From: Rhodoplanes serenus | Lineage (GTDB): Bacteria > Pseudomonadota > Alphaproteobacteria > Rhizobiales > Xanthobacteraceae | Length of the DNA: 37,282 nucleotides | Assembly: GCA_945893085.1 (NCBI GenBank) | Contig: CAMDEB010000002.1 | Location: 1-37,282, forward strand | Reading direction: 5' to 3' | Shown: positions 22,040 to 25,059 of the stretch, in pieces | How positions within the stretch are numbered: the stretch's first letter is position 1 | Layout of the letters: each line of letters starts with the position of its first letter | Translations under genes and position numbers: made by a program | The notes under the pieces: generated by a model | What the model was told of the DNA's origin: nothing | The model's database searches: none | What the model saw: the letters and a program-made list of their open reading frames with translations, nothing else

Positions 22040-22151
22040 CGGGTTGGTTATTCTACTTTTGATTGTATTCTAAACAAAATCTCTCTTAGATTGAGCCTTG
22101 ATCTGATCCGCCGACTCAGCTATTTCTAGGATTATGTTCGCGATTGTATAC

Positions 22152-22180
22152 TTGACAAACTACGTTGGCTAGAATAGGCT
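22152..22180 (+). promoter_or_regulatory. Candidate sigma70-type promoter of the IS1595 transposase
   Basis: TTGACA (22152-22157), 17-nt spacer, TAGGCT (22175-22180); the -35 is perfect, the -10 weak. Confidence 0.45.
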
Positions 22181-22200
22181 TATTTCTAAGGAGATAAGCC
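22177..22200 (+). promoter_or_regulatory. Leader hairpin with the ribosome-binding site in its loop
   Basis: GGCTTAT-TTCTAAGGAG-ATAAGCC followed directly by ATG at 22201; perfect 7-bp arms. Confidence 0.6.
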
Positions 22201-23205
22201 ATGTTGCCTTCGTCTGTTTTGAGCGCAAAATTCTTCCACAATGAGGCGGAAGCCTTCAAACATGTGGAAAAAATCCTATGGCCAAACGGCCCGATCTGCC
22301 CACATTGCGGCAATTTCGATCAGGACCGGATCAAGCGCCTAGAAGGAAAATCTACGCGGCTCGGCCTGTTGAAATGCAATGAGTGCCGGATGCAGTTCAC
22401 GGTGAAGGTCGGCACTGTGTTCGAGTCGGCGCATGTGCCGTTGCACAAGATGCTGCAAGCGCTGCACTTGATGGCTTGCTCGAAGAAGGGTGTAAGCGCG
22501 CATCAGCTGCACCGCATTCTGCAAGTGACTTACAAAACGGCGTGGTTCCTCGCGCATCGCATCCGTGAGGCTATGCGGACTGGTGGGCTTGGTCCTATGG
22601 GCGGGTTAGGCTCCATCGTTGAGGTCGACGAAACCTATTTCGGTCCGGCCGACGAACAGCCCACCGAAACCACATCGGGCAAGCCGTTCAAGAAGCGTGG
22701 CACGCACGGTCCTTCTGGCAAGCGCGCTGTGGTTGCCCTCGTTGAGCGGGGCGGCGAGGTCCGCACGTTCCATGTTGACCGCATGGACAAAGCGACGGTG
22801 GACACAATCGTGAGGGGCAACGTTGCAAGCGAGAGCCGGCTGCACACCGATGAAAGCAGGCTCTACGGCGATGCCGCCGAGCACTTTGCGGCGCATGAAA
22901 CGGTGAAGCACAGCGCCGACGAATACGTGCGCTACAACCACACATTCCCCAACGGGAAGCTGCACACTGAGAAGGTCCACACCAACTCAGCCGAAGGCTA
23001 TTTCTCGATCTTCAAACGCGGCATGAAGGGCGTGTATCAGCATTGCAGCGAGAAGCATCTGCACCGCTATTTGGCGGAATTTGATTTCCGCTACAACGCA
23101 CGCGCTGCGCTTGGCGTGAGCGATGAAATGAGGGCCGGTAAGGCGCTGAAAGGGATCGCCGGTAAGCGCCTTACCTATCGAAATCCTGACCGCGCCACGG
23201 CCTAA
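22201..23205 (+). mobile_element. IS1595-family transposase (intact ORF, 334 aa)
   Basis: N-terminal zinc ribbon CPHCG...CNECRMQFTV; GTVFESAHVPLHKMLQALHLM; DDE-type core VEVDETYFG, LHTDESRLY, VHTNSAEGYFSIFKRGMKGVYQH. Confidence 0.9.
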
Positions 23206-23220
23206 AAAAGTCAGACCACA

Positions 23221-23431
23221 AGCGGCAAAGCTGCCGCTACAGTTGGCGTTCGATTTTGGCTGAGCCATTATTGCGACCCAGTCAAATCGGCTAGAACTGA
23301 TGTTGATTCGGGTGGGTAGCTACCACCTGATGCGACCCGGGAGAGCCTAGGTACTGGCTGTTAACCAGCGTCCGAAGCTCCCCCGGCCCTGTATCTTCTA
23401 GAAGCCGGTCTGCCCCAAGCAGGCCGGCTTC
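23221..23431. other. Cluster of four hairpins in the noncoding region downstream of the transposase
   Basis: 23221-23238 AGCGGCA-aagc-TGCCGCT; 23309-23339 CGGGT...ACCCG around GGTAGCTACC; 23337-23386 CCGGGAGAGC...GCTCCCCCGG (one mismatch) enclosing CTGG-CTGTTAA-CCAG; 23401-23431 13-bp stem with one T-G pair. Confidence 0.6.
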
Positions 23432-23509
23432 GCATTTAAGCGCATGTTCAACGTCTGAGTCACGCGCCGAATCGCCAAGGCATCGTACATAGCGTACAGT
23501 CGGGCCACA

Positions 23510-23543
23510 AGGATTTTTGCGGAAAAAACTCCGCAAAAATCCT
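23510..23543. repeat. Perfect 14-bp inverted repeat, possible operator
   Basis: AGGATTTTTGCGGA-AAAAAC-TCCGCAAAAATCCT, ending 5 nt before the ATG at 23549. Confidence 0.85.
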
Positions 23544-23548
23544 CGGAT

Positions 23549-23788
23549 ATGCACATGGCCGATGATAAGTCCGAGCCTTTAGACTTTCGAGTTTCGGCAG
23601 TTTTGTATAAGTATCTCGGATACTTAGCGAAGCACACGACTCTCGGCCAAAAGGAAACGGATGTAGCGCGGTTCTTGCTGACCGAGCGCCTAAACGACAT
23701 GGTTCGAACGAAGGAACACGACAAACTGAAGCCGCCACAGGACAGCCCCGATGAAACGACCGAAAGCGGGACCCCGTCAGGTCACTGA
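23549..23788 (+). CDS. Small hypothetical protein, possibly ribbon-helix-helix-like
   Basis: 79 aa; LDFRVSAVLYKYLGYLAKHTTLGQKETDVARFLLTERLNDMV looks like beta strand plus two helices; ATG at 23549 or 23555. Confidence 0.6.
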   Translation: MHMADDKSEPLDFRVSAVLYKYLGYLAKHTTLGQKETDVARFLLTERLNDMVRTKEHDKLKPPQDSPDETTESGTPSGH

Positions 23789-23936
23789 ATTTAGGAAAGC
23801 CGCGCGCGCTCTCGGTGCCGACGAGACGCCGGAGCGTTTTGACGCGGCGCTGCGGGTGGTCGGGCAGGCTAAGGTGAAGGGCAAGACGCCGCTGCTTCGT
23901 CCTGTCCGGCGGGTACAGCCGAAGGTCCGTGACTGA
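23751..23936 (+). CDS. Small basic hypothetical protein
   Basis: 61 aa, MKRPKAGPRQVTEFRKAARALGADETPERFDAALRVVGQ...; overlaps the preceding ORF by 38 nt. Confidence 0.5.
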   Translation: MKRPKAGPRQVTEFRKAARALGADETPERFDAALRVVGQAKVKGKTPLLRPVRRVQPKVRD

Positions 23937-23937
23937 G

Positions 23938-24369
23938 CTAGAATTGGAGCCGGTATCGTCCGCCGCGCTGATCGCTGCACGCCCCCATGCCATGTGGGGA
24001 TAGTCCAGCCTCGATCTTCATCTCGCAATTGAGTGAGGTGCCTCGATCACCGGTCAAAAAGGCCGTGGCATTGCCGATATTCGATCCCGTCGAGCTTGAT
24101 CCGAATGCCGTGGCACTACGGGTGCCCGAATGGACGAAGGCGGTCCCGCTGCTGGAAACGGTTTCTAAAATCCCGACATATCGCCCCGAAAACCGCTCGC
24201 CAGAACTGGGATCGAAGGCTCTCACCTCCCCGGTGCGCCGCGCCCGCTCTATTTGAAATTCAAGGACTTTTCCGTTCTCTGCAATAATGTTTCCGGGGAT
24301 CATTCCCCCAGCGCATCCCAGCAGCGCGAGCATCGACGAAATCAGACAGACGCTACGGAAATTATACAC
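23938..24369 (-). CDS. Hypothetical lipoprotein
   Basis: 143 aa; lipobox-like LALLGC after a hydrophobic N-terminus; GERFSGRYVGI, LNCEMKIEAG, GRYRLQF. Confidence 0.75.
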   Translation of the reverse strand: MYNFRSVCLISSMLALLGCAGGMIPGNIIAENGKVLEFQIERARRTGEVRAFDPSSGERFSGRYVGILETVSSSGTAFVHSGTRSATAFGSSSTGSNIGNATAFLTGDRGTSLNCEMKIEAGLSPHGMGACSDQRGGRYRLQF

Positions 24370-24510
24370 CTGACCCTCCTCACCCGGCCCTTAGTTATCG
24401 GACAACCGGAGCGAGCGAACAAGCTAAGGGTGGCTAATTCGGAGAATGAAATTGCCCTGCCGGGGGATCACGGCGTCATATCGTGGTTTGGCAAGTACAT
24501 AAACGCCATT

Positions 24511-25059
24511 ATGTTCCCCAATGTAAGACTTCGGTCCGCCTCTGGCCGTGGCCTGAGCATCGCCGCGGCAGCAGTGACGTTTGCCCTGGGCCTCGGCATC
24601 GGAGCCACCATCCTCCCGGTGACCGCGAGCCGAAGCGTCGTCGCGCCGGTGGTCGCGGTCCCTGCGCCGGCGGCACCCGCCAGCGAGCCGATCGCCTTGC
24701 GGGCGGCGCATCCAGCCGAGGTGTTGCGGGTGCTCGACGGCGATACGTTCGAAGCGCGCGTGCACCTGTGGCCGGGCCTCGACATCACGACCAAGGTTCG
24801 GCTGCGCGGCATCGATGCGCCGGAGCTCAAGGGCCGCTGCACCGAGGAACGCTCGAAGGCCGAGACCGCGCGCGATGCGCTGAAGACGATCCTCGATCAG
24901 GGCGATGTCGCGATCGCGCGCGTCGCGCTCGACAAATACGGCGGCCGCGTGATTGCCGATGCTTCGACCCACGCGACGCCGGATGTCTCCGCGGCGTTGC
25001 TCAACATCGGAATGGTGCGCCGCTATGCCGGTGCGCGCCGCGAGACCTGGTGTCCCTAG
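24511..25059 (+). CDS. Thermonuclease (SNase-like) family protein with N-terminal signal or anchor
   Basis: VLRVLDGDTFEARVHLWPGLDITTKVRLRGIDAPELKGRCTEE...; about 183 codons from MFPNVRLRSASG. Confidence 0.82.
   Translation: MFPNVRLRSASGRGLSIAAAAVTFALGLGIGATILPVTASRSVVAPVVAVPAPAAPASEPIALRAAHPAEVLRVLDGDTFEARVHLWPGLDITTKVRLRGIDAPELKGRCTEERSKAETARDALKTILDQGDVAIARVALDKYGGRVIADASTHATPDVSAALLNIGMVRRYAGARRETWCP

Follow-up and report, generated by a model that had tools for sequence, protein, structure and literature searches.

A conserved structured element, most likely a noncoding RNA, carried by an IS1595-family transposon of Rhodoplanes serenus

A question raised by this locus is whether the roughly 340 nucleotides that separate a transposase gene from the next plausible coding sequence encode a structured RNA and, if so, what such an RNA would be doing there. 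The original prediction, made from the letters of this DNA, had placed a possible uncharacterised structured RNA or element at positions 23206-23548 of the window, i.e. of the entire 37,282-nucleotide stretch of Rhodoplanes serenus DNA that was analysed. This noncoding stretch is bounded by the transposase stop at 23205 and by a conserved small coding sequence, orf79, with its start at 23549 or 23555. The hairpins said to lie at 23221-23238, 23309-23339, 23337-23386 and 23401-23431 can all be read at those coordinates, and both the A-C mismatch of the 23337-23386 stem on the plus strand (G-U on the minus strand) and the G-U pair of the 23401-23431 stem on the plus strand are correct in the sequence. 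The perfect 14-bp inverted repeat was located at 23510-23543 with a 6-nt loop. Across the 37 kb window, no other short-loop inverted repeat is perfect over 14 bp, or even over 12 bp. The folding energy of 23206-23548 corresponds to z = -5.8 on the plus strand and -6.5 on the minus strand, with none of 100 shuffles reaching the same level; 23206-23450 gives z -5.1 on the plus strand. In 160-nt sliding windows the fold signal is limited to approximately 23241-23640, and z < -4 occurs nowhere else in the transposon that contains the stretch.

This transposon came to light when the sequence was scanned for inverted repeats with the same 8-mer on either side. It extends from 22139 to 24507, encloses the noncoding stretch and is a complete, compound IS1595-family element with passenger genes (table 1). 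It belongs to this family by its transposase, which combines an ISXO2-like DDE domain with an N-terminal zinc ribbon (both Pfam matches above gathering cut-offs), as well as by its ends, i.e. terminal inverted repeats (TIRs) and an 8-bp target-site duplication (TSD). TIRs of the type GGCGATTATATACTTGACAA together with an exact 8-bp TSD are present in about 55 of 80 loci encoding related transposases. The joined flanks of the window transposon align in one piece in the relative G102 (L107), which thus presents an empty site. The order inside the element is transposase, noncoding stretch, orf79, orf61 and orf143, and the surrounding host genes are htpX, DUF1674, SNase and YkuD in a Rhizobiales-type genome. 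Other IS1595 elements occupy the same htpX/DUF1674-to-SNase interval in two congeners (L102 in G150 and L103 in G135, the latter with perfect TIRs and the TSD CTTATAGT), and this interval may be an insertion hotspot. The related transposon in genome G193 (L119, from 2292 onward) adjoins rsmB and a heparinase-like gene, which are also found in the chromosomal neighbourhood of the window, and its target ATCATGAT resembles that of the window element. Among the passenger genes, orf61 had no match in Pfam, NCBIfam or PHROG; proteins of its type, 50-60 aa long, are frequent companions of this group of IS1595 transposases (in the window and in 53 of 80 loci, L022-L101).

Table 1. Coordinates of the window transposon, of its parts and of other structured stretches in related loci
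Feature	Position	Strand	Remarks
Target-site duplication, left	22131..22138	.	8 bp, ATTATGTT; same 8-mer at 24508-24515, matching inverted repeats inside
Terminal inverted repeat, left	22139..22164	+	CGCGATTGTATACTTGACAAACTACG; 15/20 matches to right end
IS1595-family (ISXO2-like) transposase, 334 aa	22201..23205	+	Pfam PF12762 E 3e-33, PF12760 E 1e-11
Short hairpin directly 3' of transposase stop	23221..23238	+	different hairpin at this place in the L022 element
Structured noncoding RNA (most likely), ends approximate	23240..23440	+	5' hairpins, conserved AAATCGGCTA (23284-23293), core hairpin, terminal hairpin, conserved ATTTAAG
Core hairpin	23337..23386	+	10-bp outer stem, CTA, GG/CC, 4-bp inner stem, invariant loop CTGTYAA, GAA
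Terminal hairpin, 13 bp	23401..23431	+	weak T tail (GCATTTAAG)
Promoter/operator-like region of orf79	23450..23554	+	paired GANTC, direct repeat CGTACATAG CGTACAGTC, 14-bp inverted repeat 23510-23543
orf79, small passenger protein	23549..23788 (start 23549 or 23555)	+	homologues in 6/300 family genomes, best 45% identity
orf61, small passenger protein	23751..23936	+	downstream of transposase in related loci
orf143, lipoprotein-like passenger ORF	23938..24369	-	no Pfam match; no homologue in fetched loci
Terminal inverted repeat, right	24482..24507	-	matched to left end
Target-site duplication, right	24508..24515	.	8 bp, ATTATGTT
Type-2 RNA	L035:6080-6194; L052:6016-6121; L061:6713-6804(-); L089:6086-6175		motif ACACGGTGAATCTCCNGGCCGTAGCC; also L188-L191, L192-L194
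Third structured stretch	L024:6047-6126; L067:2163-2254; L080:6125-6212; L082:6121-6208

The noncoding stretch itself is made up of two separate units, a structured RNA (approximately 23240-23440) followed by the promoter/operator region of orf79 (approximately 23450-23554). The structured stretch as such was borne out, and what the original prediction had missed is its position inside a transposon, its two-unit make-up and its preference for the plus strand. The hairpin at 23221-23238 is only a possible part of the RNA. The 14-bp repeat lies outside the conserved RNA and within the orf79 promoter region, where the element of locus L022 has a different hairpin. A promoter search called none for the RNA and no convincing terminator was seen either, the hairpin at 23401-23431 not being called as an intrinsic terminator (GC-rich hairpin plus T tract).

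The L022 element provides the evolutionary comparison. It shows the same order of transposase, noncoding stretch, orf79 and orf61, its transposase protein is 72% identical, and its noncoding stretch is strongly structured too (z -5.4). L022, L007, L119 and G193 represent one genome, the genomes compared are drafts, and the known examples of the RNA come from two independent elements. In both of these the RNA and orf79 are paired, whereas the gene after orf61 differs, the place of orf143 being taken by a GNAT acetyltransferase (Pfam) in L022/L119. A covariance model with the window sequence (23337-23434) as its sole input matched the syntenic L022 stretch with E 1.2e-7 in a search of 838 kb, and this model also provided the structural alignment, because MAFFT misaligned the core hairpin. 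With the structure derived from the window sequence alone and the changes read from L022, in five of 29 pairs both bases differ and still pair, which as such is equally expected of DNA-level hairpins; six out of six slid controls, in which partners were moved by 1 to 3 columns, gave 0 compensatory changes, and a shuffle control was weak, as expected with two sequences, with 11 of 500 shuffles reaching the observed level. One further pair is repaired in L022 relative to the A-C mismatch of the window, and three one-sided changes, all of them in the terminal hairpin, all yield G-U on the plus strand. Moreover, the loop and flank motifs CTGTYAA, CTA/GAA, AAATCGGCTA and CATTTAAG are invariant between the two elements, which argues for constraint beyond the stems.

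Covariation among homologues, a check named by the original prediction, thus amounts to five compensatory pairs with one homologue and none in the slid controls. The Rfam check produced no family match in the stretch: with the covariance models of Rfam 15, nothing reached gathering in the window, and a threshold relaxed to E <= 5 brought out nothing significant in the stretch. The idea of an uncharacterised structured RNA or element is therefore supported by the fold z-scores, the L022 homologue, the compensatory pairs and the absence of an Rfam match. As judged by sequence comparison, these data establish the approximately 200 nt at 23240-23440 as an evolutionarily constrained structured nucleic acid, with the plus strand favoured. 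Covariation and conserved loops, together with a minus-strand ORF that lacks a counterpart in L022, point to a real structured element, and this element is most likely an RNA, i.e. best read as the product of an uncatalogued, putative noncoding RNA gene on the plus strand.

Further copies of this RNA seem to be rare. When the stretch was used as a nucleotide query against plasmids and phages, no real match was obtained, and matches of 30 bases each in L002 and L003 from a family-wide DNA search were rejected as chance. A motif search of 399 family genomes returned only the window, G193 and L112, the last of which was also rejected as a chance match, to what we take to be a Rhizobiales intergenic repeat. 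Model R2 detected the RNA of the window in 2 of 399 family genomes, i.e. nothing new, and no further copy in 89 fetched loci; 66 motif matches in IMG/VR every one failed this model.

The gene that follows the RNA, orf79, is itself poorly characterized. A profile of six orf79 sequences matched only the window's own genome among 348 genomes of the order, and orf79 had no match in Pfam, NCBIfam or PADLOC. Its AF2 model is weak (two helices, pLDDT 64), and a guess from sequence that it might be a ribbon-helix-helix protein was not borne out by this model. What its homologues share lies upstream: all six orf79-type genes compared (window, L005, L006, L008, L009 and L022) have a GANTC pair 64-113 nt before the start in differing contexts, against a background of 0.32 single sites per 140 nt, and in both the window and L022 this block is found downstream of the RNA. 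Since the block thus precedes orf79 in all contexts and follows the RNA, a promoter of orf79's own appears likely. In Alphaproteobacteria, CcrM methylates GANTC, and cell-cycle control of orf79 is therefore a plausible guess. Short repeats occur upstream of orf79-family genes beside the paired GANTC. The orf79-type genes in L005 and L006 directly follow a tRNA gene, and that in L008 follows a different, strongly structured noncoding stretch (z -5.6); the RNA of the window is absent beside the homologues in L005, L006, L008 and L009.

How, then, is the RNA to be interpreted? The reading that we somewhat favour is that the noncoding RNA has a gene of its own, that the promoter of orf79 comes after it as a distinct unit, and that the RNA acts in trans as one half of a mobile RNA-protein module. 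One alternative is a cis-acting leader, attenuator or riboswitch-like, which would be transcribed as the 5' untranslated region of orf79 and control this gene: in both elements the RNA is on the orf79 strand and directly upstream, with strong hairpins ahead of the start codon. Such a leader seems unlikely, however, as orf79 appears to own a promoter downstream of the RNA (the GANTC pair) and has homologues in other contexts without this RNA. By its location next to the transposase gene, the RNA could also be a small RNA controlling the transposase, by antisense or 3' untranslated region control of transposition. Regulatory RNAs are indeed known in IS elements. Some of these cases are discussed in PMC11092175. 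Yet, in neither element can the RNA pair with the transposase mRNA, or with other parts of the element, better than shuffled sequences do, and at this position related transposons either have no RNA or have an unrelated one, which makes transposase control quite improbable.

We regard it as no less improbable that the hairpins are merely terminators or insulators after the transposase gene with no function in trans; the stretch does follow the transposase stop and several relatives have terminator hairpins there, but internal loops are conserved besides the stems (CTGTYAA, CTA, GAA, AAATCGGCTA) and the hairpins have no proper T tract. A DNA-level element, i.e. a cruciform or protein-binding hairpins serving transposition or regulation, would account equally well for the compensatory changes, which do not separate RNA from DNA, and for the perfect symmetry of the 14-bp inverted repeat. 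This reading is nevertheless very improbable, since the terminal hairpin has three one-sided changes that are all G-U on the plus strand, a bias not favoured by pairing in DNA (the A-C mismatch in the core hairpin of the window being one contrary case), and the transposon ends are ordinary TIRs. Finally, the minus strand contains an open frame of 87 codons (23291-23554), for which coding conservation had been named as a possible refutation of a structured RNA. L022 retains the RNA but has no homologue of this frame at the corresponding position, and the frame crosses covarying stems, so that protein coding is hardly credible.

According to the favoured interpretation of a trans-acting RNA, the RNA would be transcribed on its own in the same direction as the transposase, would have its 3' end at or near the hairpin 23401-23431 and would form, together with orf79 or host factors, a mobile RNA-protein module in which it is the RNA component. 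The nearest candidate partner is orf79, which by analogy may play the part of a module protein. By the same kind of analogy, the module might benefit or stabilize the transposon like a toxin-antitoxin or defence-type RNA. This toxin-antitoxin component rests on analogy with unrelated proteins, because orf79 does not look nuclease-like. The RNA would then be cargo, occupying a slot directly after the transposase in which relatives seem to carry other, unrelated RNA-protein modules.

Related elements contain further structured RNAs in this position. Within 300 nt after the transposase, 16-18% of folding windows have z < -3, versus 3-4% further in. A type-2 RNA with the core ACACGGTGAATCTCC-N-GGCCGTAGCC is present in L035, L052, L089 and L061, the copies in L061 and L089 being matched by model R3, which had been built without them. 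Compensatory changes affect 6 of its 18 pairs, a CTCC/GGAG pseudoknot is possible, and a 26-base motif recognizes this RNA across transposons and viral contigs. R3 finds it in exactly those 4 of 80 elements that encode protein P134 (Fisher p 6e-7), and in L061 the RNA and P134 are inverted together. The type-2 RNA is also found in four IMG/VR viral contigs, with P134 adjoining in L189 and L191, and together with P134 in the genomic loci L192 and L194. It is usually convergent with a nuclease-like protein of 130-160 aa with a BECR fold. The predicted fold of P134 is confident (pLDDT 92). Its strong matches (probability 1.00) are to phage MuF and PolyVal proteins, in their C-terminal domains of nuclease and ADP-ribosyltransferase-like type, whereas RelE/HigB toxins match it only weakly. 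Residues H52, K98 and H112 of P134 are conserved. In 12 related elements, the opposite strand carries a DUF3800 gene, and a third structured stretch, located between the IS1595 transposase and the convergent DUF3800 gene, is common to 4 of these 12; base changes in it preserve the outer stem (GTGGTCC/GGGCCAC versus GCGGCCC/GGGTCGC). DUF3800 proteins are reported to have an RNase H fold and to be associated with noncoding RNAs (PMC10910872). Notwithstanding these associations, orf79 resembles neither P134 nor DUF3800. Counting the RNA of the window with orf79, type 2 with the BECR-fold nuclease-like protein and type 3 with DUF3800, none of which matched Rfam where tested, we tentatively propose that in compound IS1595 transposons of Alphaproteobacteria the position after the transposase is a cargo slot for interchangeable RNA-protein modules, with at least three unrelated RNAs. 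That these form a mobile RNA-based addiction or defence class is a possibility that still falls short of being probable.

IS1595-family transposons with passenger genes were reportedly treated by Siguier et al. in 2009, and the window element is like them in its transposase domains, TIRs, 8-bp TSD and passenger genes; to our knowledge, a structured RNA gene as cargo was not described there, and the titles and abstracts of the literature searched contained no report of one. DUF3800-associated RNA motifs, which Weinberg et al. are said to have described in 2017 and which are included in Rfam, are similar in that a structured RNA lies beside a small gene of the mobile-element type and DUF3800 occupies the same slot in the 12 relatives, but the window element and L022 have no DUF3800 and no Rfam match. 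Type III toxin-antitoxin systems, which pair an RNA antitoxin with an endoRNase, are similar in that a mobile element carries a small structured RNA and, adjoining it, the gene of a small protein, and the type-2 partner P134 looks BECR/RelE-like in its predicted model. Unlike the antitoxins of these systems, the RNA of the window is without tandem repeats (the stretch was checked for direct repeats). As for orf79, it has no family match and a poor helical model, and it does not look nuclease-like. OMEGA RNAs of TnpB/IscB and the IS110 bridge RNA are also noncoding RNAs within transposons; by contrast, the window element has no TnpB, IscB or IS110 protein and instead has a DDE transposase, ordinary TIRs and a TSD.

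If our interpretation is correct, a common family of bacterial transposons would carry structured RNAs that are not yet catalogued, together with nuclease-like proteins as their partners. This would add RNA families that current libraries miss, and the loci described here would be short and concrete places at which RNA-based toxin-antitoxin or anti-phage function may be found.
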